Positions 19,832-58,367 of a DNA stretch of 64,000 nt are shown here, piece after piece. Under the pieces are notes generated by a model that saw only the letters and a program-made list of their open reading frames with translations, was not told where the DNA came from and did no database searches. The position numbers and the translations under genes are program-made. Source of the DNA: Bacteroidota bacterium. Its GTDB lineage: Bacteria; Bacteroidota; Bacteroidia; Bacteroidales; VadinHA17. The stretch covers positions 1 to 64,000 of the forward strand of contig JADFQJ010000011.1 in the NCBI GenBank assembly GCA_022561875.1. Direction: 5' to 3'. Every line of letters begins with the position of its first letter. Positions within the stretch are counted from its first letter, which is position 1.

Positions 19832-22800
19832 TTGCCTTTTTTAAAAACCAGCTTTGTTATGCAATTACCAGGAGAACCAAAAGCCGTACTCAACCAGGAA
19901 GCCAGGAGTTTTGTCGATCTATATGCTCAACTTGGTGAAAGAGCAGAAAACTTTCTTCCCGACCGGGTCTTTGAAAGCCTTACAAATTTTGTGAGATTAT
20001 GTTATGAAGAGCCAGATGATCCTGCCAGGCAGCAGGCTGAGATCCGGAAATACCTGTTGGAACTAAAAGAGGCTATTCCCGGCTACATAGATGTTTCACT
20101 TATGCTGATGCCCCATGAAGACTCAAAAGCATTTGAGTACAGTGCAAGAAGGCAGTTATTCTTTAATACGCTCAATGAACTTATTGATACCGAGCAAGTT
20201 GATGACAAAACTAAAATCCAGTTCAGAAATATTCTTAAAACTCATGATTATTCACTGGGTACACCTCCCATTACAAATGTAACCATCGACTTTCTTTACA
20301 GGATATTGCTGGGCGACAAGGTCAGGGAACTCAGGAAATTTCGTGATCTGATAGGAGTAAGTGGTGATGTCGAGGAAGCACAGTGGAATTATATGCTTGA
20401 TGTAATGGACCAGATGATCAACCAGTCGACCCATTATACCACAAGTGCGGAAAAGGACAATTTTCTGGCCCGCACCGAATCGACGATAAATTTCAAAGGA
20501 CTCAACGGTTTCATACGTACCATTGTTTCGGGCACTGCCGAAACAGCCATCGATCTGCTTACAAAAGAAGTATTCAGCAAAAACAGCGTCAGGGTTCTGG
20601 AATTTTCGACAGCCGAAAAGCTTTATGAAGAGATATATGAAGACGGCACCAGTATTTTCGCTATCAGGATGAGAAATATGAGAAAGAACCCGTTCAACAC
20701 CTTCAGATGGTTTCCTTTGCTGACAAGAATGGTTTTCATTGATGACTCACCTGAGTCCCGGTCAACGAATACATCCCTGATCTTCTGCCTGCATAATGGT
20801 ATTATAAATACACTTAATAAGGTTCATACCAAGAAACTGGGTCCACTTGCCAACAGCCAGCTGAACCTCCGACTTATCCATGATAAGGTTAACTCCCGGA
20901 ATTTGAAATATTTCAGACAAAAGATCGAAGAAAAAATAGTCGAATATGACAAGGAACTCAGGCAGTTGAAAGAGGAACAACTCGCCAATCCCGATGATGT
21001 CGACCAGGATATTATTCTTTATAAATTTGATGAATTTGCCCGCCAGGTAATCAAAGATAAGTACATCCTTTCAAAATTCGGAGCATATATCAACCTGATA
21101 GAAAACACAAGGGACCCTGAAAATCTTAAAATTATCAACCGGGAGATGATAAGGGAATTTGAAGAAAGAACCCTCGCGTATTTTTATTCTGAGAACAAAA
21201 GCCTGCATATAGCAACAGTTGTTGAAGGTGGCGGACGTAACCAGATACGAACATATGGAGAATACCTGCTCCAACGCCCTCTTAAACCCGTAAAGGATTC
21301 AATAATAAACAGGTGCAGAATTATCCTGGATATCGTTCCTGATAATTACCAGAGAACAATACGTAATCATTTCCATAAAAACTTTGGAATAAACCTTTTT
21401 CTTGAGAAGTATAAAGAATATCTCACCAAGGTCGAAAACAGTGCGGATAACCAGGGAAGATTCAGAAACCTGCTGATTGATCTTGGTATTGAGGAAAAGT
21501 ACAATGAAAAAGATACAGCCGGTAAACAGATCATTAACGAATTCATAAGCAACCTGGGAAACCTGGAAAAAACATCTATTTCAGATGATGTTCAAATGAT
21601 TATACGAGATCTGTTGTTTTACAAGAACCGCAGACCAAACCCGTTCATTTTTTTCAACCAGGAAGCTGCCTGGGAATATAAAGACCTGTTTCCGCCCGAT
21701 CGTTTTGACCTGAATCCTTTTGATATTGAAATTGAACTCAATGAAGAGGGTCGGGTTGACTGGGAGCGATTGCTCACAAAGCTTGAACGAATTAAAAGCA
21801 CTTTTCAGTTATTCGATGAAACGGGTAATTTATGGGACCGGTTTTGTGAGAATTCAATCCTTGTTATCAATGACCCGGCAAACCCGTCAGGATTCACCGA
21901 TTTTAATAACATTCACCTGATAAAATTTTTTAAGTTCCTCAATAACAGTAAACTAACCTTATTTCTGGACGAAGCATATAACGATGCTGTGAAAATCGAG
22001 GATCCTGAAGAGCCTAAATGGCGGACTATCTCAAGGTATATCATGAATAATATCGGTTCATTTGCAAGGATAAGTATTGTATCGGCTCTCTCTACAACAA
22101 AAAATCTTGGTGCAACCGGAGATCGTCTCGGCTCCCTGATAGCTACACCCGTCAGAAAAGATGTGATTGATTATGCCAGGGAACAATTCGGAGTTGAAAA
22201 AGGGAACACAAACTCCCTGTTCATTCTGGTTAATATACTGGAAACAGCCCAACTGGCAAAAAAGATAAAAGACAGAATGGACGAAAGTCTTCCAAAAGAC
22301 GCTTCACGGTATAAGATAAAAGATAAGCTGAAAAAGTATATCATGACGGAGATCCGGGATAATATCAATGTCCGTGAAAACGGGTACAAAGGTCGTATAC
22401 GAAATCCATCACTATTCGAAGGAAGTCCGCTTCACCTGTTCCTTCTCGAAGAGCTTGTCTCCCTCGATAAACTCGACGTGCTCGAACTACCCGATGATTT
22501 CAAATATAAAGGTGTTCCGTTTTTCAGCTATTATAAAGAACACCTCGTACGGGAGCTGAATGAATTCAGGGTGAACAAGATATTCCGGCAGGAAGCTAAT
22601 AAAAGACTTGATCTGGTCAAAAAAAAGGCGTTATCAGTTTTATCTGAAAACGAAGAAAACCAAATTGGCATACTCGACTCAGACGGGTCATACCTGTTCA
22701 ACCTTCATCTGAAAGACTTTTTCTCGTACCAGGATCTTGAAAAATTTACAATAAAACTGTCTGGCCAGCGTGGTATTGCTCTTATCCCCTACCAGACAGG

Positions 22801-25800
22801 ATTCTTACGATTCTCTCTGGGTGATTACCTGGAAGGTACAGCAGACAGTTATGATATTTTTATAAAAGAATTTGAAAATGCACTGAGGATCTTTCTGAAG
22901 TACTGGTCAATTTTCTATGAAGCAAAGAATAATCCTTCTAACAAAACAAAACGGACTGAAGATATTCTGGATGAAATATTCAGTGTTCGGAATGATAGTG
23001 AACTGATCGGGAATATCCTTGAAGATTTCTATATCATTCGTGATCTTGACAAAAAGATCAACAACTCGTTAAAAATCAGCGATATAAAAACCCTTTATCA
23101 TGCTTTCCCAAAAGAATGCGGGGTTTCAATAAATTCAATTGGTGATTCGAAGAATACAGTTCTGGAGTTTTATGAAAATGTTGGAAAATGCAGAAATCTG
23201 ACAGAGTTTATCTCATCAAAAGCATTTACAAAAGTATATGAGAACCTTCTTCCTCAGGTTTATCGAAACATTCCACACCTTAAAAAGCTTGATATCAATA
23301 CGGTAATTGCCAAATATGGGAAAACAACCTTACTGAAGTATATTAAAAGCAAGCTTGAATTCCAGCCAGACCGGTATATACTCGATAACCCGGATGAACT
23401 GACTATTATGCAGGAGATACTGATAGAACTGGAAAGGATCCTGTTTTCTGATGCAAAAACCAAAATACTGTCAATTAATGCAAATGAAAATGATATTCCC
23501 GGCGACCTGGCTAAACTGGAAGGTTATAATAGAATACTAAGAAAATACATCCAGGAATTGTTGCTGCATTTTAACCTCCCTTTTGAGCAGCAAGCTATTG
23601 AACCCACATTTGAACAACTTGCTAATTCAACAGCTGTAAAATTTAACGAGATTGTCGGATTATCTGTAAATGACCTTAACCCGGATATTTTCATGAACCT
23701 GTATATCGAGAAAATCGATAATAGATTGCACGACCTAAACCGTGATGAGATGATGAGAAGATATTCCGGTGTTATCCAACAAACAATCCGTAAACAGGTG
23801 CATCATTCGCATCTTACAACGGTTAATAAGATATTGTTTCTTTACCTGCTGCAGAAGGATAATTGCTTTGAAACCAGGGTGATTGAGAAAATAAACCGGT
23901 TCACAGGCCATTCTGATAATACAGAACAGGAAGATATAAGACTAATTAAGGAAGATCTGGTATCACGACTTATTCCGGCGGAGATAACGGCATTGATGGA
24001 TGAAATATTCACACAAAGAAAAATAAAGATAATTCCTGATCACCTGCACAATGAAGTCAGGGAGATAGTCCTGTTTTTTATCAGCCTGGCAAACATGACC
24101 AAAAACAACGAGTATTATAAAAAATATAATCATATACTTATCAGACTGGTTGAAACTGAATTCATGCAACAGAATTCCAGCATTAATGAAATGGTACAAC
24201 ATGGGATTGTCCTTCACAGAGATTTTTCCATAAAAAACAACCCACTTGAAAAATGGAACAAAGGATCGTTATCATGGATCGTGCAATTGATGTCCCGCTG
24301 TGGAGTAATTGCCTGGGAACAACCGGTACAATTACGTACACGCATCGCAACCGATGCCAAGAGAAGGCTATATCCATTCCATAAGGTTGACAGGATTGAG
24401 GAGCCATCCGGGAACAAAAAAATTGGTGATAATTCCAACCGTAATGAATTTATTAAAAAAATGCAGGTCAGACCTTTATCATCATTTTTTATCAAAAGAC
24501 TTGCTCTTTTTGCACAAAATCTTGATGAAGAAGATTACAGGTGTAAAATCGTAAAAACCGGGTTGGTTAAGGAACTCTATATTATTCAAAAATCATATTT
24601 AAAATACCTGGCGGATAATTACCGGTTGATTGGCCCTGGATTTATAGATCTTCGTGATGTTCAAAACTTCATACCCGATGTAATACTTTTTCTCGGGGCT
24701 CCTGAGAAAGTTATTTCATTCCCTGAAATCGGATATTTCGACCTGAAAGGCCCCAATGGTAACATTAAAACTATCGTAACACCACTGAAGAAATCAGTTG
24801 ATTATTTTGGTAACATCAAGAAACCGAGGTTAACCATGGTGAATGAAAAAGTGAAGGAACTTGGCGGCTTACCTGTTCATGGTTCTCTGTTTGCCGTGGA
24901 AGAAGATGACGGTAGTATATTTGTGATCCAGATAAGTGGTGATAGCGGTGTTGGTAAATCTGAAATGCTTGCTGCCATGATGTTGAAATGGATGAAAAAA
25001 GATCTGCCGGGCATCCGCTCAATTAAGATGATTGCCGGGGATATGTTTCATCTGTTCCCTGATGAAGAGGGTAACCTGTATGGGATAGGTACAGAAACGG
25101 GTGATTTCTCGCGTGTAACGGATTTTGATCCTGATTTTATTAAATATTATAATTCCCTTTTCGAAAGCAGTGCAGACAGTAATGTGAATGATCTGAACTC
25201 CAGAAGCACTATCAGTGGTTTATGTGATATCAATATGCCTTTTAAAATTGATATCATGCTCACAGCCTACAACTTTGCCAAAGAAGAAGCAGGTTTGAAA
25301 CGATATGCCAACCCTGAAAACTTTTTTCTCTATCGTGATTCACATGGCGAAAGGAAAGAAAAAGCAACAAGCTCAGACAATCCGCATATTCAGCGTACTC
25401 TGCTCAGGTATACTGGCGACAAGAATATTGTTGAAGTAATCGACCGGTATGGCAACCATCTTGATGATATTCTTACATGGGAAAAAGATGAATTTACCGG
25501 AATACATTACCTGTCATCCTCATACAAGATGATGGATAAGATTGATATTGAAGATGTTGTTAACAAGATATTTATTAAAAAATATTTTAACCGGAATAAC
25601 AAGGAATTCCTGATCAATAAAGTCAGGTTTGATATAATTGAGAACAGGTTCATTATAGATGCAAAATGCACAGATGGTGAAAGTAAGATTTCGTTCCCTG
25701 TTGACAGGGATTTCTTTGGCACCATGTTTAATACTCTGGCCAGTACTCCGGCAGGAAACCCATTCATTGCTGAGCCGGGAGAAAGTGAAGCTAAGAAAAA

Positions 25801-26527
25801 CCTTATTGAGATACTGAAAGGAAGGCCGGACGGAAAAGGAAAAGGAAAAAACATCCAGCTTGGCATCCTTTCGACTGATCTTGGCAAGAAAGGAAAAGAA
25901 ATAACCGGTCCCCAAAAAGCTGCAGAAGATGTTAGAACTTTGATACGCGAAGTGAGAATTATGAGCCCTGACCTTGACAGAAAGAAAAATCATGTTAAGA
26001 AGTTAATTGTCGAATGCTATAAGCATCTGTTCAGGCATCATAAACATAATATGGAAATTTGGCGGTATAATTTCTACCTGTACCAGCTTGAAGAAATGCG
26101 AAAAGCCAGGCTGGTTAGAATAGATGATATGAAAACTAAAATTGACCTGTCAGGATTAGCGGGTTTCTATCCTTTACCAAAGAATCATAAATTCAGTCCG
26201 TTACTGATAACCCCAAATATCAATATTGAGTTAAACGGGTTTAGTGAAACTTATGAACAACTAATGTGGTTGCCTAATAACCAGGCGTTTGCTAACCAGT
26301 TCTATCTCGATTGCGATAAAGTTTATGTTGCAAAAGGATATAGCAAAGACACTATTATTAACAACATGGTTATACAGCTTCTTTTGATGAACGGGTATAT
26401 TGAAGTTGAGGACCTTACTCTTAGCAGAATAACTGAAAAGGCAAACCGTGAAACAATTGCTGCAGCTAAATTTGCAGTTGTAAAGAAGCTTAAGGAAATT
26501 GAACCAGAGAAGACCGGAAAAAAGTAA
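19832..26527 (+). CDS. Giant 2231-aa protein: PLP-dependent aminotransferase (fold type I) domain plus C-terminal HprK/PEPCK-like P-loop module
   Basis: Single uninterrupted ORF; NDPANPSG (680-687), LDEAY (712-716), SALSTTKNLGATGDRLGS with Lys757, FLRFSLG with Arg993; HprK-like LPVHGSLFAVEEDDGSIFVIQISGDSGVGKSEM with Walker A at 1703-1710. Start may be the internal MQLPGEP at 19859. Confidence 0.85.
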   Translation: MPFLKTSFVMQLPGEPKAVLNQEARSFVDLYAQLGERAENFLPDRVFESLTNFVRLCYEEPDDPARQQAEIRKYLLELKEAIPGYIDVSLMLMPHEDSKAFEYSARRQLFFNTLNELIDTEQVDDKTKIQFRNILKTHDYSLGTPPITNVTIDFLYRILLGDKVRELRKFRDLIGVSGDVEEAQWNYMLDVMDQMINQSTHYTTSAEKDNFLARTESTINFKGLNGFIRTIVSGTAETAIDLLTKEVFSKNSVRVLEFSTAEKLYEEIYEDGTSIFAIRMRNMRKNPFNTFRWFPLLTRMVFIDDSPESRSTNTSLIFCLHNGIINTLNKVHTKKLGPLANSQLNLRLIHDKVNSRNLKYFRQKIEEKIVEYDKELRQLKEEQLANPDDVDQDIILYKFDEFARQVIKDKYILSKFGAYINLIENTRDPENLKIINREMIREFEERTLAYFYSENKSLHIATVVEGGGRNQIRTYGEYLLQRPLKPVKDSIINRCRIILDIVPDNYQRTIRNHFHKNFGINLFLEKYKEYLTKVENSADNQGRFRNLLIDLGIEEKYNEKDTAGKQIINEFISNLGNLEKTSISDDVQMIIRDLLFYKNRRPNPFIFFNQEAAWEYKDLFPPDRFDLNPFDIEIELNEEGRVDWERLLTKLERIKSTFQLFDETGNLWDRFCENSILVINDPANPSGFTDFNNIHLIKFFKFLNNSKLTLFLDEAYNDAVKIEDPEEPKWRTISRYIMNNIGSFARISIVSALSTTKNLGATGDRLGSLIATPVRKDVIDYAREQFGVEKGNTNSLFILVNILETAQLAKKIKDRMDESLPKDASRYKIKDKLKKYIMTEIRDNINVRENGYKGRIRNPSLFEGSPLHLFLLEELVSLDKLDVLELPDDFKYKGVPFFSYYKEHLVRELNEFRVNKIFRQEANKRLDLVKKKALSVLSENEENQIGILDSDGSYLFNLHLKDFFSYQDLEKFTIKLSGQRGIALIPYQTGFLRFSLGDYLEGTADSYDIFIKEFENALRIFLKYWSIFYEAKNNPSNKTKRTEDILDEIFSVRNDSELIGNILEDFYIIRDLDKKINNSLKISDIKTLYHAFPKECGVSINSIGDSKNTVLEFYENVGKCRNLTEFISSKAFTKVYENLLPQVYRNIPHLKKLDINTVIAKYGKTTLLKYIKSKLEFQPDRYILDNPDELTIMQEILIELERILFSDAKTKILSINANENDIPGDLAKLEGYNRILRKYIQELLLHFNLPFEQQAIEPTFEQLANSTAVKFNEIVGLSVNDLNPDIFMNLYIEKIDNRLHDLNRDEMMRRYSGVIQQTIRKQVHHSHLTTVNKILFLYLLQKDNCFETRVIEKINRFTGHSDNTEQEDIRLIKEDLVSRLIPAEITALMDEIFTQRKIKIIPDHLHNEVREIVLFFISLANMTKNNEYYKKYNHILIRLVETEFMQQNSSINEMVQHGIVLHRDFSIKNNPLEKWNKGSLSWIVQLMSRCGVIAWEQPVQLRTRIATDAKRRLYPFHKVDRIEEPSGNKKIGDNSNRNEFIKKMQVRPLSSFFIKRLALFAQNLDEEDYRCKIVKTGLVKELYIIQKSYLKYLADNYRLIGPGFIDLRDVQNFIPDVILFLGAPEKVISFPEIGYFDLKGPNGNIKTIVTPLKKSVDYFGNIKKPRLTMVNEKVKELGGLPVHGSLFAVEEDDGSIFVIQISGDSGVGKSEMLAAMMLKWMKKDLPGIRSIKMIAGDMFHLFPDEEGNLYGIGTETGDFSRVTDFDPDFIKYYNSLFESSADSNVNDLNSRSTISGLCDINMPFKIDIMLTAYNFAKEEAGLKRYANPENFFLYRDSHGERKEKATSSDNPHIQRTLLRYTGDKNIVEVIDRYGNHLDDILTWEKDEFTGIHYLSSSYKMMDKIDIEDVVNKIFIKKYFNRNNKEFLINKVRFDIIENRFIIDAKCTDGESKISFPVDRDFFGTMFNTLASTPAGNPFIAEPGESEAKKNLIEILKGRPDGKGKGKNIQLGILSTDLGKKGKEITGPQKAAEDVRTLIREVRIMSPDLDRKKNHVKKLIVECYKHLFRHHKHNMEIWRYNFYLYQLEEMRKARLVRIDDMKTKIDLSGLAGFYPLPKNHKFSPLLITPNINIELNGFSETYEQLMWLPNNQAFANQFYLDCDKVYVAKGYSKDTIINNMVIQLLLMNGYIEVEDLTLSRITEKANRETIAAAKFAVVKKLKEIEPEKTGKK

Positions 26528-42413: not shown

Positions 42414-44063
42414 ATGAAAATCACAGAATTTAAAATCAAAGGAATGACCTGCGACCATTGTGCAACAACTATTGAAAAACAATTCAATAATAAGGAAGGT
42501 GTTGTAGGAAAGGAGGTTTCATATCAACAGGGAAGCGGAAAATTCACTTTCGATGAGAATAAAATATCAAAAGAAGAAATTATTAAAACGATTAATGATA
42601 CGGGACAATATCGGGTTGTTGATGAAATTCTTTCCAAACAAGGTAAACCAGCAAAGAGCTATGATTTAATAATTATTGGCGGTGGGTCAGCAGCATTTTC
42701 GGCAGCTATTAAAGCGGAAAGTTTAGGACTTTCTACGCTTATGGTAAACGGAGGCCTGGATATTGGCGGAACTTGTGTAAATGTGGGTTGCATACCATCT
42801 AAAAATCTGATTCGTGCAGCTGAAACAGCCTTTCATGCTACACACTCCAACTTTCCGGGCATTAAACCCAAAGGAGTAAATATTGATTTTGCACAGTTTA
42901 TTAAAAATAAAAAACAGTTAGTAGCTACGTTGCAACAAAAGAAATATATTGATATTGTAAGTGATTTTGAAAACCTCACTATTATAAGAGGTTGGGCGAA
43001 ATTTGTTGATGACAAAACCATTCTGGTTGATGGCAAAGAAAGATATACTGCCTTAAAACTTCTAATAGCAACAGGAGCAAGTACCAATATTCCAAATATC
43101 GATGGCTTAGATAAAATTGGATACCTGACCAATGTCTCTTTATTTGATTTGGAAGAAAATCCCGAAAGCATAACCATTATGGGTGCAGGTTACATTGGTT
43201 GCGAAATTGCAATGGCCTACAATCGCCTGGGAGTTGAAGTTCGTATTATAGAATTCACTGACCGCGTATTAAGAAGTCAAACCCGGGATATTACCGAAGA
43301 ATTGGAAAGGCATATGCGAAATGAGGGTATTGAAATCCTCCCGAATTTCAGAGCAGAGAAATTTGAGAAAAAAGGCAATGAAACTATAATTCATTGCAAA
43401 TGTCCGGACGGTTCTTCAAAACAAATTGTAGAAAAAGGCAAAATCGTGATTGCAACAGGAATAAAACCCAACACTTCTAAATTGGGATTGGAAAATACCG
43501 GCTTAATTCTCACTAAAAACGGACACGTTTTGGTAAATGAAAAAATGGAAACCAACATCCCTCATATTTATGCGGCAGGCGATGTCGTCAATACTCCTGC
43601 TTTTGTTTACACCGCAGCTTATGAAGGAAAAATTGCTGTTGAAAACGCTTTTACAGGATCAGATAATAAGTTCGATTATTCATCACTACCCTGGGTAATA
43701 TTTACAGACCCGCAAGTAGCCGGTGTAGGTTTCGATGAATTACAGGCTGAAGCAAAGAACATTCCCTTTGAAGTATCTAAATTGGAGTTGAAAGATGTGC
43801 CAAGAGCATTAGCAGCACATGATACCAGAGGATTTATCAAATTGATCCGCAACCCCGAAACCAACAAGCTCATCGGTGCAAGGATAATAGCCCCGGAAGG
43901 TGGTGAACTTATCCAACAATTGAGTATGGCAATAAAATACGGAATAAACGTCAAGGAATTAGCCGAAAGTTTTTATCCTTACCTGACATTAGGGGAAGGA
44001 ATAAAATTAGCAGCCATTACATTTGATAAAAATGTAGCAAAATTGAGTTGTTGTGCAAGTTAA
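42414..44063 (+). CDS. merA: Mercury(II) reductase with N-terminal HMA domain
   Basis: GMTCDHC; GGTCVNVGCIPSKNLIRAAE redox disulfide; C-terminal vicinal cysteines LSCCAS. Confidence 0.97.
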   Translation: MKITEFKIKGMTCDHCATTIEKQFNNKEGVVGKEVSYQQGSGKFTFDENKISKEEIIKTINDTGQYRVVDEILSKQGKPAKSYDLIIIGGGSAAFSAAIKAESLGLSTLMVNGGLDIGGTCVNVGCIPSKNLIRAAETAFHATHSNFPGIKPKGVNIDFAQFIKNKKQLVATLQQKKYIDIVSDFENLTIIRGWAKFVDDKTILVDGKERYTALKLLIATGASTNIPNIDGLDKIGYLTNVSLFDLEENPESITIMGAGYIGCEIAMAYNRLGVEVRIIEFTDRVLRSQTRDITEELERHMRNEGIEILPNFRAEKFEKKGNETIIHCKCPDGSSKQIVEKGKIVIATGIKPNTSKLGLENTGLILTKNGHVLVNEKMETNIPHIYAAGDVVNTPAFVYTAAYEGKIAVENAFTGSDNKFDYSSLPWVIFTDPQVAGVGFDELQAEAKNIPFEVSKLELKDVPRALAAHDTRGFIKLIRNPETNKLIGARIIAPEGGELIQQLSMAIKYGINVKELAESFYPYLTLGEGIKLAAITFDKNVAKLSCCAS

Positions 44064-44157
44064 TCCAACGGGGTGAATACTCATGTAAGCCGAACAAGTA
44101 TTTTAAGCATAAATAGACCTTTGGAGGAGATGGATTTTTGATCATATTTATAATAAA

Positions 44158-44811
44158 ATGAAAAGACGACTTGTAACACTGACGCTGCTTATTTCAACAT
44201 TGGTTGCCTTCGGACAGACCATCAAGACCTTTGAATTTATAATAGAGGGAATGACCTGTCAGAGTTGTGTGAACACAGCGACACGGATGCTCAAACAAGT
44301 GGGCGGTGTGGACAGCGTTTCCATTGACCTTGACTCTAAACAAGCCATCGTCATTGCCGACAATAATGTGACAGAGGACGACTTGAAAAACGCCATTGAC
44401 ACCAAGACCAACTTTGAGGCATTATTTGCAGGCGACACACTTCCCGCCCCCCTGACAGAGAAGGAAAAAGAAGGACTTGACATAAAAACCATAACAGGCG
44501 GAGACAAAATCAAATTCAAAGACCATTTAGTGCAAGGGAAAGTTATCATCTTCGACTTTTATGCCGATTGGTGCGCACCTTGCAGTGTGTTTTCACCCAA
44601 GGTGGAGCGGTTAATGCTCGACATTGACGATCTCGCACTACGCAAAGTGGACATTGTAGACTGGAAATCCAACCTTACCAAGCAATTGACAAAGGAATAC
44701 AAATTGCCGGCCCTGCCATTTACGTTAATATTTGACGACCAGGGAAACCTGCTGGGCAAAGTGAATGGAAACGACATCGAAAAAGTGAAGGAGATTATAG
44801 CAACTAAATGA
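44158..44811 (+). CDS. Secreted HMA-thioredoxin fusion protein
   Basis: Signal peptide; GMTCQSC HMA domain; FDFYADWCAPCSVFSPKV thioredoxin motif. Confidence 0.88.
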   Translation: MKRRLVTLTLLISTLVAFGQTIKTFEFIIEGMTCQSCVNTATRMLKQVGGVDSVSIDLDSKQAIVIADNNVTEDDLKNAIDTKTNFEALFAGDTLPAPLTEKEKEGLDIKTITGGDKIKFKDHLVQGKVIIFDFYADWCAPCSVFSPKVERLMLDIDDLALRKVDIVDWKSNLTKQLTKEYKLPALPFTLIFDDQGNLLGKVNGNDIEKVKEIIATK

Positions 44812-47322: not shown

Positions 47323-48642
47323 TTAAATAAAAATAAAGCTGGCTAAAATATATAGCGGAAGAAGTACAATTAATGAAAAACCGTACATATATCTAAAGAA
47401 ATGGGGCATTTTAATATCATTGTTTTCGGCTATTGCTTTTACCATAAAATTCGGACCATTTCCAATATATGTCATACTGCCAAAGAAAACTGACCCTACT
47501 GAAATTGCAGTGAGCAATGACACGGGAATGCCCGCAATCAGCTCATCTCCGGTAAACAGGGTGACAAACCGAGCCTGAAGCCCCAGGGCTAAAGAGTGCA
47601 TGGATACTGCAGTTGGAGCATTGTCCAGAAAACTACTTAATACACCGGTAACGAAATAGAACTGAGTTGGTGTTTCAATTCCCAAATGTGAAGCATTTTG
47701 CTGCAGGTATAACAGTGCAGGAGTCATAGTTGCAAATATACCCAGGAACAAGAATGCTACTTCAATAATTGGTTCCCATGTAAAATTATTAGACTTCCGG
47801 TGGCTGGTCGGAGAAAATACCAATGATAAAATAGCCATTAACAGGATAACTCCCTCACGAATAAACTTAAGGTAATGGTATTGGTCAATAATCGGAAAAA
47901 ATTGATTATTCAAAAAGGCAACAGATAATACAACACCGCCCAGCCATATAAAATTCAATTTCCCTCGTAAACGAATTGGCATTTTCTTTTCAAGGTCAAG
48001 CTGAATGTCTTCAGGTGCTTCTCTTTTGTAAAAGTACAAATCAACTATATAATAGATCAATAACAACGAAATATTGATAAATAACCATTCGGGTAATAAT
48101 TCAAAAAACCAGGTAAAGGGAGCTCCTCTCAGGTAAAGAAGGAAAAGGGGCGGATCTCCTAGCGGTGTTAATAAACCTCCACAATTAGCAACAATTGCAA
48201 TAAAGAAAAGAACAGTATGAACTTTGTTTTTACGTTCTGCGTTAGTAACCAGTAAAGGCCGGATAAGTAGCATAGCTGCCCCTGTTGTTCCCATAAACGA
48301 TGCCAGAATGGCTCCAATACCCAGGAACAAGGTGTTTATTCCTGGTTTGGCCGGGATGAAACCGGTCAGCAAAATACCCCCTGTAATAACAAAAAGTGCA
48401 CCAAGCAAAATAATAAACGGAACGTAATCAAAAAACATCTGGTGTATCAGTTCATGTGAGAATCCTTTTAATAATAAAAATATAGCTGTAGGAATTCCCA
48501 ATATCAACGCCAGGATTAGTTTTGTACTGTTTTTTTCCCATTGGCTGTGAAAGAAGATTGGGCCTGCCGCGATCCCCAAAAGCATCAAAAGGAAAGGAAT
48601 AATTGTGTATATCTCAATTGTGTGGGGTACTTCATATCCCAT
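47323..48642 (-). CDS. NhaD-type sodium:proton antiporter / citrate-transporter-family protein
   Basis: 439 aa, ~11 TM; MGTTGAAMLLIRPLL, NCGGLLTPLGDPPLFLLYLRGAPFTWFF, FLDNAPTAVSM, GNGPNFMVKAIAE. Confidence 0.92.
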   Translation of the reverse strand: MGYEVPHTIEIYTIIPFLLMLLGIAAGPIFFHSQWEKNSTKLILALILGIPTAIFLLLKGFSHELIHQMFFDYVPFIILLGALFVITGGILLTGFIPAKPGINTLFLGIGAILASFMGTTGAAMLLIRPLLVTNAERKNKVHTVLFFIAIVANCGGLLTPLGDPPLFLLYLRGAPFTWFFELLPEWLFINISLLLIYYIVDLYFYKREAPEDIQLDLEKKMPIRLRGKLNFIWLGGVVLSVAFLNNQFFPIIDQYHYLKFIREGVILLMAILSLVFSPTSHRKSNNFTWEPIIEVAFLFLGIFATMTPALLYLQQNASHLGIETPTQFYFVTGVLSSFLDNAPTAVSMHSLALGLQARFVTLFTGDELIAGIPVSLLTAISVGSVFFGSMTYIGNGPNFMVKAIAENNDIKMPHFFRYMYGFSLIVLLPLYILASFIFI

Positions 48643-48906: not shown

Positions 48907-50655
48907 TCACCTTAGTATCTTCCTTACAAAAGCCACAGTAAAGTAAGACATCAGGAACAATCCGACAAACCCTTCAACTCCTGATACCCACCGTATTACA
49001 CCAGACGGATAATAATCTCCATATCCAATTGTCAGAAAGGTAATCGCGCTGTGATAAAGCGCAACCTGTATATTAGACAAGTGATCGGGGTCTCCGACCG
49101 ATGACGTGATCCTCCCATTGGATATAAAAGGTAACACAACGTAAATAAGTGAGAAAAATAAATAGCTAACAACCATACTGAATAAAACCCTAAGCGGATT
49201 AGTTGCATATAACCCAACCTGATCAAATACCAGCCACTGAAAAGCTTTCGCAGGATATTGCCATAGGGCATAAATTGGATTTCTTTTTATACTCTCATGC
49301 AAATCGGCTCTCGCTTCATGTCTTTTAAACTGTATGTATGCTTTGTCTTCATCACTATACTTCCCTGTCAATCTAAAATTTTCTTTCAGCATTCTAAACT
49401 GTTCGGCTAACCGGCGATAGGTCGATTCCTTCTGCTCTTTAATTATTTTTTCAACCCTGTTACTATGCCAGTCAATATTAATCCTGCCTAACAATCGCAT
49501 ACCGGTAAGATCAAGCAATTGAATATCAACATCAAAATCATATGGCTGAAAATCAATTATATCGCGCACTATGGTATCTGAAAGATCCATAACATTACAT
49601 TTAGCTACTCTCAGATCAAGGTAATGATCGAGATGGCATGATTTCATCGACAGCCTGTTAAACCGGGAATTGTGAAAGGAAATGTCACCCTCGCCAAAAT
49701 CAGTATTATCAAAAGTCAGCTCTGAATTATCATACTCCGCAAGTTCAAAGTTTATATTACCCTTGCCAAATTTCGCTCTTTTGAAGCCAAACTTTCCTTT
49801 CTTAACCTGGCTGCCTTCAAAACTTACATTACCATCACCAAAAATGGAACGGTTGAAATTTATTCTTCCTTCATTAAACTCCACTGCCCTGAAATTAACA
49901 TTACTGTTTCCGAATTCAGTACGTTCAAAAGATATGTTCCCCTTTCCGAATTTTGAATAATGAAACTCAACAATTCCTCCTTTGAAACGGGCAATCTTAA
50001 AACTCACTTCTCCATCATTGAAATCCGTATTTATAAAAGAGACCTGACCGCTGTTAAATTCCGTATTGGCAAATGAAACTAATCCCTTACCAAAGCCGGT
50101 ATATTGGAAATCCTTTTTACCATCATGAATAACGGAATTCTTAAAATTGAAATCCCCAGACCCGAATATTGCATTGGCAAAGTCAATATTGCCATCACGA
50201 AACAAAGCGTTGGAGAAATTTACATCTCCGTCACCAAACCTCGCTGAATTGAAAGAAACATTACCTTTGCTGAAATGTGCACCTTCAAAACTCAGATCTC
50301 CTTTACTGAATTCAGAAAAAGAAAAATCGATTCCAAATTTTGATTCGAAGAATGAATTGGACGCGCTAAACCCGTTAAGCTCAACGTATTCCTTTTTCTC
50401 TAATCCGCGTTCACTACGATAAACCGAAAGAGAAAAATTCTTTACCAGACAATTATCGAGATTTAGATGTTCCTTTTTGTCAATCATTTTATACAGCTTC
50501 TCCGTTTCCAGGAACCCGAACAATTCAACTGCAATTGACATGTTATTTTCATCAAACAAAGTTACAATGGCTGTTTTGGGAAATACCCTACCATCGTCTG
50601 TTGTATATTTAAGGTTTTTTATCTCAACCTTATAATTTGAATACTGAAAGGTCAT
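48907..50655 (-). CDS. 12-residue-repeat solenoid protein fused to a two-TM potassium-channel pore
   Basis: 582 aa; 18 in-register repeats FGxGx(V/I)xFxxxx at residues 116-331 (nt 49663-50310); pore FLTIGYGDYYPSG (filter at nt 49015-49032). Confidence 0.88.
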   Translation of the reverse strand: MTFQYSNYKVEIKNLKYTTDDGRVFPKTAIVTLFDENNMSIAVELFGFLETEKLYKMIDKKEHLNLDNCLVKNFSLSVYRSERGLEKKEYVELNGFSASNSFFESKFGIDFSFSEFSKGDLSFEGAHFSKGNVSFNSARFGDGDVNFSNALFRDGNIDFANAIFGSGDFNFKNSVIHDGKKDFQYTGFGKGLVSFANTEFNSGQVSFINTDFNDGEVSFKIARFKGGIVEFHYSKFGKGNISFERTEFGNSNVNFRAVEFNEGRINFNRSIFGDGNVSFEGSQVKKGKFGFKRAKFGKGNINFELAEYDNSELTFDNTDFGEGDISFHNSRFNRLSMKSCHLDHYLDLRVAKCNVMDLSDTIVRDIIDFQPYDFDVDIQLLDLTGMRLLGRINIDWHSNRVEKIIKEQKESTYRRLAEQFRMLKENFRLTGKYSDEDKAYIQFKRHEARADLHESIKRNPIYALWQYPAKAFQWLVFDQVGLYATNPLRVLFSMVVSYLFFSLIYVVLPFISNGRITSSVGDPDHLSNIQVALYHSAITFLTIGYGDYYPSGVIRWVSGVEGFVGLFLMSYFTVAFVRKILR

Positions 50656-50784: not shown

Positions 50785-53694
50785 TTATTTATCCTTGCTA
50801 CACAACTGTTTATAAAGACAATATTTGCAAATTTCCTGATCCTCCACCTGCAGGAATGGAACACCAGGGTTGTACATTTCCTCAATTACTTTTTTTAACA
50901 AATCCATCAAAACCACTTCGTAGTCAGATATATCCAAAACCGGAGAAAAAGTTTTTTTGCCATCTTGGATAAAAACCCGGTAATCGAAATTTTTTTTATA
51001 AATATCTCTGACAGAATATAATCCAGGAACAACCGGGGTGACTAACCCATTCGTTTTCAGCATTAAGGCATACAGAAAAGTTTGGAAAACCGCTCTTTCC
51101 CTGTTCTTATCTCCTGAAACAAACAGATCGCTGATCAATTTAATTTTATTACCGGTTGCACCGGTTTTATAGTCTATTACACGAATTATCTCATTCACCT
51201 CGTCAATTCTGTCAACTCTTCCCCCTACCCTTACCTTTTCAGGTGCACCATCAATAATAACAGGAATATCTATCTGATGGGGTTTCTCTAACTCAATAAC
51301 CCGGAGAGGAGCGTATTTAAGATCGGTCTCCAGCAGAGTCACAACATATTTCAATAAAACATCACGTATAACCTTATTTTTTCCGGTAATCTCAGGTGCA
51401 TTTAATTTGGTATCTTCATTACTGAACCACACTTCCGTAAATGATTGGTTTACAACATCTCTTATTTTGTTGCGATCACCGATCAATCCCTTCAGAACCG
51501 GTACGTCAACGGTCTTTCCTTCATAAGGTTTGTATAACAAATTAACCGAATGATGTAACAGGTTTCCAAATACCAGCGGATCGATCTCTTCAACTACCTC
51601 ATCCGGCTCTTTAAGTCGTGCAACATACTTAAAATAAAATCTTAGTGAACAATCCAGGTATGTATTCAGGGCGCTCGGAGAAAGATGTCTTTTCACCTGA
51701 CCATCTCTGACAATATACACCGATAGTTTCTGCAAAGCTTCCCTGGTCTTGTATAACTTGAGAGGCTCATTCACAGCAATATTAATTTTATAACCAAGTA
51801 TCTTCTCTTTTATCTTAATGTCATTATCATACTTCAGTTGGGTAAGGAACCTGCTCATCTCGCCGGTTTTCAATCCTTCCGAACTGGTATTATAAATTAA
51901 GGAAACGTTACGGGCTCTTTGGATTAACCGGTAAAAATAATAAGCGTAAATTGAATCCTGATGTTCGATGGTCGGAAGGCCAAATCCCTTTCTCAGATTG
52001 AAAGGAATAAATGAATAGCCGTGTCGTGATTTAGGAAATATTCCTTCATTCATTGAAAGAACTACCACGTTCTCAAAATCTAAAGTCCTGGTTTCCAGTA
52101 TTCCCATTATCTGCAAACCTTTCAAAGGTTCCCCGCTGAATGGAATTTTTGCATCATGAATATACCTTTTAAGTAAACGATAATAAATATCGAGAGATAA
52201 TCTTATTCCTTTAGCTGATTTAACCATTTCATCAAGCCGCTTCACTGATGTATAGACATGGTAAATATATTCCCGTTCTAACTTTGAAAAACCTGACTTT
52301 TCCGTTTCTTCATCAGTATCCTTTTTATGAAGATGTTCCAGAATCTCCAGGAGATAAGATGAAATGTTCTCAACATTTTCAACAGGAGTAAAAATAAGCT
52401 GCAGCAAATGATTCTCAACTTTTTTTTCAGGAGTCCAGTAAATAATATTCTTAGTGTTTATCTCCTGCTCAATTCTTTTTGCTTCTTCGCCTGCAACACT
52501 TTGAATATAATTATTATAAAGGACGGTTAAAATATGTTTGAAATAAAAAACCGGTTTTCTTCCGGTTTTTTTCCGGAGTGATCGCTGAAGCTCAATCAAA
52601 TTGCACACCAGTCCATATACAGGTGTATCTTTCACAGGATATCCCATGGTAATATTAACATCGCTGATCTCTTCAGGCAAAGAATAGATCACCGGCATTA
52701 AAAGATGTTCATCCGGAAGAACCACTGCTGTTTTATGATCGATACTTCCAATCCCACCCGGTGTTTCCTTAAAAATTTGTTCCAGTATCTTTGCTTGCCC
52801 AACTTCTGACGGGACACCTGTAAATTCAATCTTTTTCTCACTATCCAGCATATGATTGAATGTGAAATCCAACTCCGCAGGTGGATATTTCTCTATGTTT
52901 CCCGAAATAAAAAAGCCTGCTTCCTGGTATTCCTTATCTTTTCCCAGGTAATAGAGGTCATAATCCCAATAAAATTCAGCTTTCCCGCTTTCTTTCAGAT
53001 ATTCAAACAACCTATCCTCAGCTCTGTTCAAAGCATTAAACCCGACAATAACGTATGATGAATATTTCAGTTCCGGTCCCTGGTCATCAGCTATTTTTTC
53101 CGCTACCTGCCTGTAAAGCATTCCCTCATACGCAACTCCCTCTTTACTGATCTTATTTTTGAACCCGGAATATATTTTATATAACACCTCCCACAAGCTA
53201 ACAAATTCTTCCTGGTGTACGGATTCTTTTTCCGGTTCAAACCATTTCCAGAATTGTTTAATGGCTTCAATTTGCTCCTTTTCAAAAGTAAAAAACTGAT
53301 CATCAATTCGCTTTAAATCACTCAGATTCCGGAACAGTTCTTTAGCAGAAACAAGGTATTTATCCACTTCATCAAAATCACTGAGAAACATTTCTCCCCA
53401 GTGGTAAAATTCATCAAAACTTTCTTCGGATTTCTTTTCATGCCGGAAGATTTTGTACAGTTCAAAAATCAAATAGAGCGGATCGGCTACCTGAAGACCG
53501 GAAAATTCCTGCATTAATTCCCTGATTGTCATGAAAACAGGAGACCAGACCGGTTTGTTCGTAATTTCACTAAGGTACTTGCTGAAAAACAAACCGGCTC
53601 TTTTATTCGGAAAGATCACACATACCTCACCCAGGTTCTTTTCATGCTTATTATAAACCTTTTTTGCAACCTGGTATAAGAAGTTGTTCTTCAA
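50785..53694 (-). CDS. addB: AddB-like PD-(D/E)XK nuclease/inactivated helicase subunit
   Basis: LSPSALNTYLDCSLRFYFKYVARLKEPDEV, RVGGRVDRIDEVNEIIRVIDYKTGA, C-terminal CKYCLYKQLC. Confidence 0.88.
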   Translation of the reverse strand: MKNNFLYQVAKKVYNKHEKNLGEVCVIFPNKRAGLFFSKYLSEITNKPVWSPVFMTIRELMQEFSGLQVADPLYLIFELYKIFRHEKKSEESFDEFYHWGEMFLSDFDEVDKYLVSAKELFRNLSDLKRIDDQFFTFEKEQIEAIKQFWKWFEPEKESVHQEEFVSLWEVLYKIYSGFKNKISKEGVAYEGMLYRQVAEKIADDQGPELKYSSYVIVGFNALNRAEDRLFEYLKESGKAEFYWDYDLYYLGKDKEYQEAGFFISGNIEKYPPAELDFTFNHMLDSEKKIEFTGVPSEVGQAKILEQIFKETPGGIGSIDHKTAVVLPDEHLLMPVIYSLPEEISDVNITMGYPVKDTPVYGLVCNLIELQRSLRKKTGRKPVFYFKHILTVLYNNYIQSVAGEEAKRIEQEINTKNIIYWTPEKKVENHLLQLIFTPVENVENISSYLLEILEHLHKKDTDEETEKSGFSKLEREYIYHVYTSVKRLDEMVKSAKGIRLSLDIYYRLLKRYIHDAKIPFSGEPLKGLQIMGILETRTLDFENVVVLSMNEGIFPKSRHGYSFIPFNLRKGFGLPTIEHQDSIYAYYFYRLIQRARNVSLIYNTSSEGLKTGEMSRFLTQLKYDNDIKIKEKILGYKINIAVNEPLKLYKTREALQKLSVYIVRDGQVKRHLSPSALNTYLDCSLRFYFKYVARLKEPDEVVEEIDPLVFGNLLHHSVNLLYKPYEGKTVDVPVLKGLIGDRNKIRDVVNQSFTEVWFSNEDTKLNAPEITGKNKVIRDVLLKYVVTLLETDLKYAPLRVIELEKPHQIDIPVIIDGAPEKVRVGGRVDRIDEVNEIIRVIDYKTGATGNKIKLISDLFVSGDKNRERAVFQTFLYALMLKTNGLVTPVVPGLYSVRDIYKKNFDYRVFIQDGKKTFSPVLDISDYEVVLMDLLKKVIEEMYNPGVPFLQVEDQEICKYCLYKQLCSKDK

Positions 53695-53742
53695 GATATC
53701 AAAGTATTAACACAAGATAAAAAATTTGTTATTAATTTCAAT

Positions 53743-53770
53743 GTTACGGGTTACGGGTTACGGGTTACGG
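53743..53770. repeat. Heptamer array (GTTACGG)x4
   Basis: Four exact units. Confidence 0.95.
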
Positions 53771-53849
53771 GTTTGTCTTACTTACTCACCTAACTTACCT
53801 ACTCACCAACTCACGTCTACTTCCGACTTCCTGCTTCCTGCTTCTTACT

Positions 53850-54803
53850 TTACTTCTTACTTCTTCGACCCTGCCATATATCCATTTCTTCCAGCTTTTG
53901 CTCAAAAAACTTAAGTATCTGATCCGTTCTTTTCAAATTCCACTGCGGACCGGCCAGTAATCCCGGTGGTGCTTCTCCCGTTATCCTTTCAACAACAAAT
54001 GCCGGATTGAGTCTCTCAACAAAATTTACAATAAATTCAATATATTCCTTCCAGGTAAACAAGTTGAATCGTTCAGGATGTTCCCTGTATTCACCTGACA
54101 TAGCAGTATCCTTAATAATTTGCAATTGATGGAATTTTATATTGTCCAAAGGTAAGCCGGAAATGATATCTGCTTCATCGAGCATTTGTTTCCTGCTCTC
54201 ACCCGGCAGACCAAAAATTAAGTGAGCACCAACATGAATACCCTTCCTGGCTGTTTTTTCAATTGCCTCAACACTTTGCTCATAAGTATGTCCCCGGTTT
54301 ATCCGTTCAAGGGTTGAATTATAGCATGACTCAATACCGTATTCAATGATAATATAGTGATTTTCAGCCAGTTCGCTAAAATAATCGAGTTTCTCATCAT
54401 CCACACAATCAGGACGAGTTCCAATAACCAATCCAACCACTTCGGGGAATTTCAGTGCTTCCCGGTAGATCTTCTTCAGATCAGCAAGTGGAGCATATGT
54501 ATTGGAATAGGCCTGGAAATATGCAAGATATTTAGTCGCCCTGCGATACCGTACTTTATGAAATTCAATCCCCTGCCTTATCTGGTGACCAACAGGTTTT
54601 TCAGGGCTGCAATAAGAAGGATTAAAAGCATTATTGTTGCAATAGGTACAACCACCCGTTGCAATTAAGCCATCCCGGTTAGGGCATGTAAATCCGGCAT
54701 CGATACTCACTTTCTGAACTCTTTCTCCAAATATTTTCTTAAAATAGTTCGAGTAAGCATTAAATCTTCTCTCATCACCCCAGCTATATACCTTTTTGCT
54801 CAT
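53850..54803 (-). CDS. Radical SAM protein, TIGR01212-like family
   Basis: [61 protein letters not shown]. Confidence 0.93.
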
Positions 54804-54865
54804 AAATTATCTTAAAATTGCAATTATGTACTTTCTTAACTTTCAAAATTCATGTTTCATATTTG

Positions 54866-55016
54866 GGTTAAAATTTATGCATACCTTTAAAGCATGATTA
54901 GTATACGGATTTTGCGAACGCAGTGAAGCAATCTTTCATGACTTTTCATAAAGCTTATGACATTTCATTGTTTTGGCATTCTGTTTGTTTTTAGGAGTTT
55001 ACTTCTCCCCTTACTC
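54866..55016 (+). repeat. MITE-like element, copy truncated at the distal end
   Basis: GGTTAAAATTTATGCATACCTTTAAAGCATGATTAGTATACGGATTTTGCGAACGCAGTGAAGCAATCTTTCATG..., parallel to 14291-14440. Confidence 0.7.
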
Positions 55017-55034
55017 ACCTACTCTACCACTCAC

Positions 55035-58000
55035 CTACACTTGAACAACTTCATCCAGCTCGACATACCAGAGATATCCTTCAGTATGCCTGTAGCCCAT
55101 TTCTGAAAGATAACCCATATACTGCCTGATCTGTGATAAGTGTTTTGTCTCCTGAACTTTTCCGAATTTATAATCGATAACCACTGTTTTTTCATCATTA
55201 TAAATAACCCTGTCAGGTCGCCTGATCTTTCCATCCCTCAATATAATATCAGCCTCAGTTTTTACTTTCCATTTATCACTGAACCAATCTTTTACCCTAA
55301 AATCTTCCAGCTTATGGCAAACCTGTTCCTGAATCACGGGTATTTCACCGGCTGAAATTTTACCCGCATGAAATAGCTTTTTTACTGAAGATTTAACATC
55401 CTTCACGGTAGTAATATTCTCAAATATCTCATGCATTATTTTTCCATAACTCACCTTTGATCTTTCACCCATCCCGGCCGGTTCAAAATAACCATCCGAC
55501 TGAAGATTCAACCAAAGTTTCCCGGAGTACTCATGAGACGGATAAGTTCTCACTGCCATTTCTCCCAATCCAATCTCCCCGGAAACATCTTTCGTTATTT
55601 CATTATTACCTAACCTGAAAAGTTTTTTTTCCACATCCCAAAATCCCGAAAAGTCAATCCCCTGTTTTTCCGTTTCGCGGTTTACAGCTTCAATATCGAG
55701 GTGGAGGGCCGAACTAACCAGTTGTCCTGCATCAGTAAGCCCACCATCCTTTGCAGGTACAGGACACATTACGAACAAACTCTCCTTCGCCCTTGTAAAT
55801 GCAACATACAACAAATTAAGGTTATCGATAAAAACATAAAATTTTTCACGGAAATAATCCTTGTAAAATTCCGTTAAGGCTAATCCCTTCACATATTTTA
55901 CCGGAACCCGTTCCAGCTTGTTAAACGGAGCCGTTTGAGGGTTACACCATATCACCGGGTGTTTTTCATGATCAATTTTCCAATTACAAAACGGTATTAT
56001 TACCGATCTGAACTGCAAACCCTTAGCCTTATGCAAGGTTAGAACACGGACTGCATCCAGTTTTTCAGATAACTGGATACTCTTTTCCGATCCGGTTTGC
56101 TTCCACCATTCTAAAAATTGCATGATCCCTGAAATCTCATTCTTTGAGTACTCTATTACAAGATCCTGAAAAGCCTGAATGAATGGGATTTCATTCTCCA
56201 TAGTGTTCAGCTTAAAAATCCTGATCAGGTTTTCGGTCAGTTCAAACAGTGGGAGGTTCTTTAGCTTCTGCAGCTTTTCATTGAATTCTACGGGTAAGAC
56301 CGATACCAGCATGGTGTCACGGTCATCCGCCTCAAATACTTCATTCATCTCCTGCACTTCCTCCCCGGTTTGTTTATCCTTTTTCTTAAGGCAGTAAAGC
56401 AACCAGGTGCTATTGATTTCATCATCATGATTCACAATATACCGCAGCATTCCCAATAAAAACATAACAGCTTCTGAATTCCTGATAAATAATGAATCAT
56501 CCGAGATCAGGTTATATGTCCATCTCTGTTCCGGATCATTATTCATGTACCCAAGCAGGCTTTCCATAACCATTACAGCCTGAGCCTTTTTCCTGACAAG
56601 TATTGCAATCTCACCGGGTTTCAATCCTTTATCAAGCAAGTCACCTACCATGGCAGGTAATTTCTCCAGCACTTTACTTTCCCAATTCTCTCCCCCGGGA
56701 TCAATAAATGATATCTCAATATATCCTCCTTCTTTATCTCCATTTCCGGATAAAACCTGGATATGATCACTGAAAACACCGGAAATTGTGGTACTAATAC
56801 CTAAACCTTTCATATCCAGGTTCTTTTCACCATTCTCCTCAAGATCGCTGATAAAATGATCATCCAGTAGCTTCTTTGCTGCCTCAAACAGTCTGTTGTT
56901 AAAATCGATTATATTTCGTTTGCTCCTCCAGTTCTCCCTCAATGGTTTTCTATCCACCTCAAAAATATTATGATCTCCTGCAGCAAGAGAAGCCAGAATG
57001 TTCCAGTCACTGTTTCTCCACCGGTATATCGATTGTTTCACATCTCCAACAACCAGGTTTTTAAATCCTTCCGAGAGACTATTGATTATCAACGGTTTAA
57101 AATTCTCCCATTGGACTTTTGATGTATCCTGAAATTCGTCGATCATGAAATATTTGAAATAATTACCTGTCTTTTCGTAAATATATGGCGCTTCATTACC
57201 ATTAATGATTTTATTAAGAAATACAGGGACATCGGATAAAAGGAATAGATTATTATCATGTGTAATATCTCTGACTTGCTGTTCAATATCTGCTAATATT
57301 CCATACGAAAACAGATTTTCATTTATCCTTACTGCTGTAAAATATTCCCTGAAGTTTTCATTATAAAATTCAATTGTCCGCTTTAAAATTTCATTTAGTC
57401 CACCATCTACCGCTGCAATAATTTCATTCTTTTTTTCAGATGTTGGTTTAAACCATTCATCCGGATTATCAACAGCTCCTGCATCACGTTTACGAGGAGT
57501 GAGTTTCTGCCTGTTTCTTTCATTCAGATACCAGAAATAACGTGGAACACTCGAGCTTCCGTATTTAAAATCTTCAATCTCCAGTGAATTTTTATTAATT
57601 AGGTCCAATCCTTGATTTCCATATTTCTCCAAAGTATTTTCAAATGAGTGTATGATCTTATACAAACTCGTCTGGTAGACACTCAGTTTCTGCAAAAAAG
57701 AGTCAGTCCCACCCGGTTTAAACTCATTACCAGTCCCCTGATAGTCTTCTGCAAAAATTTCATTACCAAGATCAAGCAGACTATCCCTGAAATTCCAGTT
57801 CCGCCCTTCTTCAATCCTGCTTTCTGCAAATCTGGTCAGCCAATCAATTAATTTGGGCTTTTTATCCAGATTCTCCATCAGGTCATCAACCGCCTGTTCA
57901 AGGATTCTTCTATTATCAAGCTCAAGGTTAAATCCAAATTGCAAACCGGTTTCCCTGGCAAATGAAATAAGGATCCGCTGGAAAAAATTATCAATGGTCC

Positions 58001-58367
58001 CTACCGAAAATCTGGAATAATCATGCAGAAGCCTGTCTCTAATCATCCCGGCTTCCCTTTTTATTTTTTCCGGAGTCGATCCCAGTTCTTGAATAATTCT
58101 ATCTGTTGCCGGGGTTTTTTCACCGGTAGCAAGATTATTCAATTCTTCCAATATCCTTGCTTTCATTTCGGCAGTAGCTTTATTAGTAAATGTCACAGCA
58201 AGGATATATCTGTACTCATGCCCCGATTTAAAAAGTAACTTGATATATTCAACAGCCAGTGTAAAAGTTTTTCCTGAGCCCGCCGAAGCACTATATACTG
58301 TTAGTTTTGACATGGAGTATTGAAACAGAACAATGAAGAATAAAAGTAAGAAAAAAGCAGAGAACAA
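55035..58367 (-). CDS. addA: AddA/RecB-like UvrD-family helicase-nuclease
   Basis: 1110 aa; VYSASAGSGKTFTLAVEYIKLLF (Walker A), FKYFMIDEFQDTSKVQW, VLTLHKAKGLQFRSVIIP, LLYVAFTRAKESLFV, C-terminal KTEADIILRDGKIRRPDRVIYNDEKTVVIDYKFG. Confidence 0.93.
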   Translation of the reverse strand: MFSAFFLLLFFIVLFQYSMSKLTVYSASAGSGKTFTLAVEYIKLLFKSGHEYRYILAVTFTNKATAEMKARILEELNNLATGEKTPATDRIIQELGSTPEKIKREAGMIRDRLLHDYSRFSVGTIDNFFQRILISFARETGLQFGFNLELDNRRILEQAVDDLMENLDKKPKLIDWLTRFAESRIEEGRNWNFRDSLLDLGNEIFAEDYQGTGNEFKPGGTDSFLQKLSVYQTSLYKIIHSFENTLEKYGNQGLDLINKNSLEIEDFKYGSSSVPRYFWYLNERNRQKLTPRKRDAGAVDNPDEWFKPTSEKKNEIIAAVDGGLNEILKRTIEFYNENFREYFTAVRINENLFSYGILADIEQQVRDITHDNNLFLLSDVPVFLNKIINGNEAPYIYEKTGNYFKYFMIDEFQDTSKVQWENFKPLIINSLSEGFKNLVVGDVKQSIYRWRNSDWNILASLAAGDHNIFEVDRKPLRENWRSKRNIIDFNNRLFEAAKKLLDDHFISDLEENGEKNLDMKGLGISTTISGVFSDHIQVLSGNGDKEGGYIEISFIDPGGENWESKVLEKLPAMVGDLLDKGLKPGEIAILVRKKAQAVMVMESLLGYMNNDPEQRWTYNLISDDSLFIRNSEAVMFLLGMLRYIVNHDDEINSTWLLYCLKKKDKQTGEEVQEMNEVFEADDRDTMLVSVLPVEFNEKLQKLKNLPLFELTENLIRIFKLNTMENEIPFIQAFQDLVIEYSKNEISGIMQFLEWWKQTGSEKSIQLSEKLDAVRVLTLHKAKGLQFRSVIIPFCNWKIDHEKHPVIWCNPQTAPFNKLERVPVKYVKGLALTEFYKDYFREKFYVFIDNLNLLYVAFTRAKESLFVMCPVPAKDGGLTDAGQLVSSALHLDIEAVNRETEKQGIDFSGFWDVEKKLFRLGNNEITKDVSGEIGLGEMAVRTYPSHEYSGKLWLNLQSDGYFEPAGMGERSKVSYGKIMHEIFENITTVKDVKSSVKKLFHAGKISAGEIPVIQEQVCHKLEDFRVKDWFSDKWKVKTEADIILRDGKIRRPDRVIYNDEKTVVIDYKFGKVQETKHLSQIRQYMGYLSEMGYRHTEGYLWYVELDEVVQV

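Follow-up and report, generated by a model that had tools for sequence, protein, structure and literature searches.

A predicted pentapeptide-repeat beta-solenoid joined to a predicted two-transmembrane K+ channel in Bacteroidota

The gene at 48907-50655 of the window, the 64,000-nucleotide stretch of DNA analysed here, raises the question of what a long array of 12-residue repeats does in front of a potassium-channel pore, and whether such repeats form a class of their own. A first-pass annotation of the sequence had proposed a solenoid sensor that gates a K+ channel and is built from possibly novel repeats. According to the present analysis, the repeat and the fusion are both of catalogued kinds (pentapeptide repeats and an ion channel), and the channel family is uncharacterised; no description of a pentapeptide-repeat K+ channel was found in the literature searched. 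According to a 2021 review, just two pentapeptide-repeat proteins have an explicit biochemical function, and the word "channel" appears nowhere in that text (PMC8145042). With a repeat rod tied to a K+ pore, binding to the rod could be read out directly as an electrical signal. The family, so far uncharacterised, is worth keeping in view because the question of its gating is tractable and its operons offer a clue, in that the stress-signalling operons of some relatives suggest how such channels are switched.

Domain organisation and predicted structure

The gene begins with an ATG codon and is single-copy in the source genome, whose only PF13576 matches in a genome profile search are those of this gene (Table 1). 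An AlphaFold2 (AF2) model of its product, built with 50 homologues, reached a mean pLDDT of 90.9 and comprises a beta-solenoid, a helical hairpin, M1, a pore helix and M2, with beta coils continuing past the solenoid to about residue 393 and the pore helix spanning residues 528-542 ahead of the filter. The structure prediction called for at first pass thus returned a solenoid, and identical anatomy was obtained for a long-form member of 671 residues (pLDDT 90.4). AF2 is known to model perfect repeats too readily as beta-solenoids, which then usually have charged residues buried inside (PMC11795689); this concern is lowered, not removed, because the repeats have diverged (lag-12 identity of only 33%) and the expected inward positions are Phe, Val and Ala, with little charge. 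A Pfam search of the N-terminal cap domain gave no match, and the hairpin, searched against solved structures, gave chance matches only.

Table 1. Features of the channel gene and its recurrent upstream neighbour (window coordinates)
Feature	Position	Strand	Basis
Entire pentapeptide-repeat K+ channel gene (predicted), 582 aa	48907..50655	-	ORF, Pfam, AF2 model
N-terminal beta/alpha cap domain, aa 1-115	50311..50655	-	AF2 model
18 dodecads, aa 116-331, predicted beta-solenoid of ~9 coils x 24 residues	49663..50310	-	Repeat analysis, AF2
Terminal beta coils past the regular dodecads, conserved, aa 332-396	49468..49662	-	Alignment, AF2
Helical hairpin and next helix, conserved, aa 401-479	49219..49455	-	Alignment, AF2
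Transmembrane helix M1, aa 487-511	49123..49197	-	AF2
Pore helix and selectivity filter TIGYGD, aa 528-547	49015..49074	-	Pfam, alignment, AF2
Transmembrane helix M2, aa 553-581, near-invariant C-terminus MSYFTVAFVRKILR	48913..48999	-	Alignment, AF2
AddB-like PD-(D/E)XK nuclease, recurrent upstream neighbour	50785..53694	-	Neighbour annotation

The two transmembrane segments and TIGYGD filter initially read from the C-terminus are borne out by an Ion_trans_2 match (PF07885, E=6e-11, residues 494-580) and by the model, in which the C-terminus forms two long helices, TIGYGD being residues 542-547. The two-TM K+ channel layout of M1, pore helix, T(I/V)GYGD and M2 is present, and in the homologue alignment T542, G544, Y545, G546 and D547 are each at least 90% conserved, as is RKILR at the C-terminus. 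Many invariant columns fall in the hairpin region, the consensus of which is EQFRxLKExFxxxGxYxxEDxAYxxFKRxE. The domain order is solenoid, hairpin, M1, pore and M2, and the 582-residue chain ends right at M2, with no RCK or nucleotide-binding domain beyond it. KcsA and Kir two-TM K+ channels have the same M1-pore-M2 arrangement and canonical filter; in contrast to them, the Bacteroidota channel is without a C-terminal cytoplasmic domain and carries its large, putatively regulatory domain on the N-terminal side.

In Foldseek searches, HalA of Hailong (PDB 9nyi), a structure solved in complex with a ligand, was the best fold match and the only one in the PDB with E<1e-3 for each of the two models (E=2e-5 and 4e-4); the alignment spanned 365 columns, the HalA chain being 333 residues long. 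Beta-helix enzymes, pentapeptide proteins (MfpA; 6fls) and K+ channels ranked after it. The TM-scores to HalA are low (0.23/0.37), the identity is 13%, and, unlike HalA, the channel has no NTase partner gene, HalB nucleotidyltransferase being absent from the recurrent neighbour clusters and the scanned window neighbours. Because profile searches recovered no HalA by sequence among the matches listed, the likeness is one of build only and homology is not established. Membership of Hailong was rejected, since these searches gave neither a sequence link nor a partner gene. The single match below 1e-3 in a viral structure library, an uncharacterised poxvirus protein, was no useful lead.

A 12-residue form of the pentapeptide repeat

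The 18 dodecads follow a degenerate one at residues 104-115 and run without gaps, confirming the perfect register described at first pass; Phe occupies position 8 in all 18 and position 1 in 15 (the rest being Ile, Val and Tyr), which agrees with the two Phe positions given there. In self-comparison of the repeat, identity is 0.333 at lag 12 (z 12.6) and 0.365 at lag 24 (z 14.0), values reached by 0/2000 shuffles in either case, and is depleted at lags 11 and 13. The register is kept in homologues, 50 of which give the pooled consensus F-G-D-G-D-V-S-F-E-N-A-E, in which position 1 is Phe in 85% of repeats and position 8 in 96%, while position 6 is V/I/L and position 11 A/S/T/V.

The 12-residue period had been taken to set these repeats apart from pentapeptides, possibly as a new class. 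This view was not supported: Pentapeptide_3 (PF13576), a catalogued family, recognises the repeat in seven stretches (E=4e-13; 49.8 bits against a cut-off of 27), and the Phe-Phe spacing alternates 5/7, not 5/5. A dodecad is two pentapeptides (VxFxx and AxFxx) and two extra residues, the consensus parsing into V-S-F-E-N, A-E-F-G-D and a two-residue insertion, G-D, and both Phe positions are preceded at i-2 by V/I or A/S/T. A new repeat class is thus rejected on the PF13576 match together with the 5+7 decomposition. As judged from sequence, the dodecad is a sub-form that pentapeptide repeats already include, ordinary in kind, because Streptomyces Pentapeptide_3 proteins carry FxxGxVxFxxAx too. 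PF13576 proteins in general share with the channel the central Phe, the A/V two residues before it, units of two pentapeptides and a predicted beta-solenoid, whereas the channel adds Gx after every second pentapeptide, giving a unit of 12 instead of 10 residues and a coil of 24 instead of 20.

The Streptomyces proteins, encoded on plasmids and annotated as pentapeptide proteins (e.g., WP_329583145.1), have the 5+7 dodecad with Phe-Phe spacing of 5/7, match Pentapeptide_3 at E=5e-29 and 1e-34, and are 36% identical to the channel across the solenoid; unlike the channel, they have N-terminal hydrophobic segments, and Pfam finds no channel pore in them. One Streptomyces plasmid protein with these dodecads (locus L124, 1886-3532; lag-12 identity 0.55) is encoded near a recombinase and a Tn3 transposase. 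As for the fusion, the refuting case named at first pass, an already catalogued fusion of this kind, largely applies: the haloarchaeal protein WP_284011228.1 has the same order of PF13576 solenoid, helical linker, Ion_trans_2 pore (TIGYGN) and short C-terminus, yet with an 11-residue unit (Phe-Phe spacing 5/6) and 24% identity. The joining of a solenoid to Ion_trans_2 therefore recurs in haloarchaea.

In the AF2 model, solenoid strands start at residues 179, 193, 203, 217, 227 and 241, a spacing of 14, 10, 14, 10 and 14, and a 24-residue coil corresponds to two dodecads. Set against the four-sided right-handed beta-helix of pentapeptide proteins, the model offers these periodic strands and the Foldseek matches to MfpA and 6fls. 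A two-sided solenoid with 12 residues per turn, as in the Tenebrio antifreeze protein, is disfavoured because the strands repeat at 24 (14+10) and the lag-24 similarity is slightly above that at lag 12. The Knotted Solenoid fold, which is triangular, has few Phe and is reported to be exclusive to one bacterial group, was unsupported here (PMC13123833). Conserved residues outside the core cluster in the middle dodecads (N209, 100%; E259, 94%; R269, 94%; R256, 90%), and a putative docking or binding face is therefore suggested on that part of the rod.

Relatives and gene neighbourhoods

A scan of one genome per species gave 80 loci, nearly all from Bacteroidota or from records labelled close to Bacteroidota, and the family appears almost confined to this phylum. 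In the taxonomic order of the source, matches at E<=1e-5 occur in 41 of the 198 genomes, some few being weak and restricted to the pore, and genomes drawn evenly from the phylum gave almost no matches to the channel. Three length classes are found, short (~555 aa), medium (~582 aa) and long (~665 aa), with spacings between conserved flanks of 212-214, 237 and 320-321 residues in most members. The comparison of repeat number suggested at first pass is informative here, since relative to the medium class the solenoids differ by close to -24 (short) and +84 (long) residues, and most change in length has therefore come in multiples of 12. A tree built on the last 245 residues of the protein groups 24 long forms in one supported clade (100/98), and two more lie outside it with weak support. 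One relative (locus L008, 1501-3033) is broken by a single in-frame TAG, possibly as a pseudogene or through an assembly error.

Of 36 non-redundant loci of medium forms, 18 have a gene for an AddB-like nuclease on the same strand upstream of the channel, usually no more than 200 bp away; in the window the distance is 129 bp. The nuclease is often a neighbour of this class, and a functional tie to the channel is putative. The minus-strand row at 50785-58367 comprises this nuclease, a radical-SAM protein and a UvrD/AddA-like helicase, an order in which the first two also precede the channel in many relatives. A CitMHS_2-family ion/citrate transporter (47323-48642, minus strand) is encoded just downstream of the channel on the same strand.

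Long forms have other neighbours. A SiaB(DUF6272)-SiaC fusion gene on the same strand precedes the channel in 12 of 22 loci, and the gene for the polyphosphate kinase PPK1 follows it in 9 of 23. Farther upstream, a caspase-MORN protein and a papain-like protease are often encoded; alternatively, a SpoIIE phosphatase gene is adjacent, as in a few loci. At one locus (L072, 432-10051), genes for a caspase-MORN protein, a papain-like protease, the SiaB-SiaC fusion, the channel and polyphosphate kinase are co-directional, an arrangement that recurs in several genomes. Neighbour counts gave no SiaB-SiaC linkage in the window and no close linkage in the short and medium classes. The source genome has one SiaB-SiaC pair elsewhere (contig C37; locus L118, 2199-3159) and five SiaC-family domains, pair and domains being distributed over contigs C37, C78, C60, C41 and C1, and therefore a Sia partner could act in trans on the window channel.

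Proposed gating mechanism and alternatives

From the repeat geometry, domain order, filter, conservation and missing C-terminal domain observed here, we infer the oligomeric state, K+ selectivity, topology, gating direction and sensing role: the protein is probably an N-terminally gated tetrameric K+ channel of the inner membrane, with the pentapeptide-repeat solenoid as a cytoplasmic docking or sensing rod. K+ selectivity is predicted from the TIGYGD filter. The two-TM topology of K+ channels places the N-terminal part in the cytoplasm, where the solenoid is accordingly predicted to lie. Four subunits would assemble into the channel, and the rod of each may dock or sense a regulatory protein or a ligand. 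Binding to the rod would shift the conserved hairpin at the base of M1, and this shift could open or close the pore from the N-terminal side, through solenoid, hairpin and M1 in turn; regulation is assigned to this side because the chain stops right after M2. Of the solenoid sensor gating a K+ channel that was first proposed, the predicted beta-solenoid fused to a K+ pore stands, and gating by the sensor is plausible.

Through their operon link to the channel, SiaB/SiaC and PPK1 become candidate partners, and SiaC is the best genomic candidate for docking in the long forms. In Pseudomonas aeruginosa, the diguanylate cyclase SiaD is the target of a partner switch made up of SiaA, SiaB and SiaC (PMC7647112, PMC7278518). 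As a special case of the N-terminally gated channel, SiaC might bind the solenoid or not depending on whether it is phosphorylated, a state that the SiaB kinase and a SpoIIE/PP2C phosphatase would set; its docking would open or close the channel, which would stand in for SiaD as the output, and short and medium forms would use a partner encoded elsewhere. The neighbours of the long forms, together with the SiaB-SiaC pair and SiaC domains of the source genome, are consistent with this version. It is nevertheless rather improbable, given that the Sia genes are not closely linked to short and medium forms, that of the window among them, and that SiaBC-bearing loci are not independent events because they lie mostly within one clade. 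Equally tentative is a Sia switch through which stress of the envelope or of nutrient supply would be coupled to membrane potential and, for the long forms, also to polyphosphate synthesis encoded in the same gene row; Sia control of a K+ channel is a testable and novel idea.

The rod could instead be only a tether or scaffold, and the protein a K+ leak channel that serves ion homeostasis, either constitutively or under osmotic regulation. Membrane transporters do follow the gene in different contexts, and these vary between lineages (CitMHS_2 in the window, CitMHS at L088, DUF819 at L038), which weakens the point; the conserved surface of the middle dodecads and the hairpin suggest a specific contact, and a leak channel is thus unlikely. 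HalA is reportedly, in the Hailong paper, an ion channel with a ligand-binding, DNA-binding crown domain. In Hailong, DNA oligomers suppress the effector HalA and a phage exonuclease releases it (PMC12657230). By analogy, the channel might be an abortive-infection effector that a ligand holds shut and that opens upon phage-induced loss of the ligand. The fold match to HalA and the AddB-like nuclease upstream of many medium forms, the AddB-type recombination pathway being commonly attacked by phages, would fit such a role. Against it stand the low TM-scores, the lack of HalA sequence similarity among the profile matches listed, the absence of a nucleotidyltransferase from the recurrent neighbour clusters and of any PADLOC match (from a library older than the Hailong structure), and a gene order beside housekeeping genes that is kept across genera, unlike that of mobile defence loci. 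An anti-phage role is accordingly very unlikely, and the N-terminally gated channel with a docking or sensing rod remains the preferred reading.

Elsewhere in the window, plus-strand genes at 42414-44811 encode an HMA-domain flavin disulphide reductase and then an HMA-thioredoxin protein, by appearance a mercury/metal detoxification pair, and an open reading frame of 2231 aa lies at 19832-26527 on the same strand.
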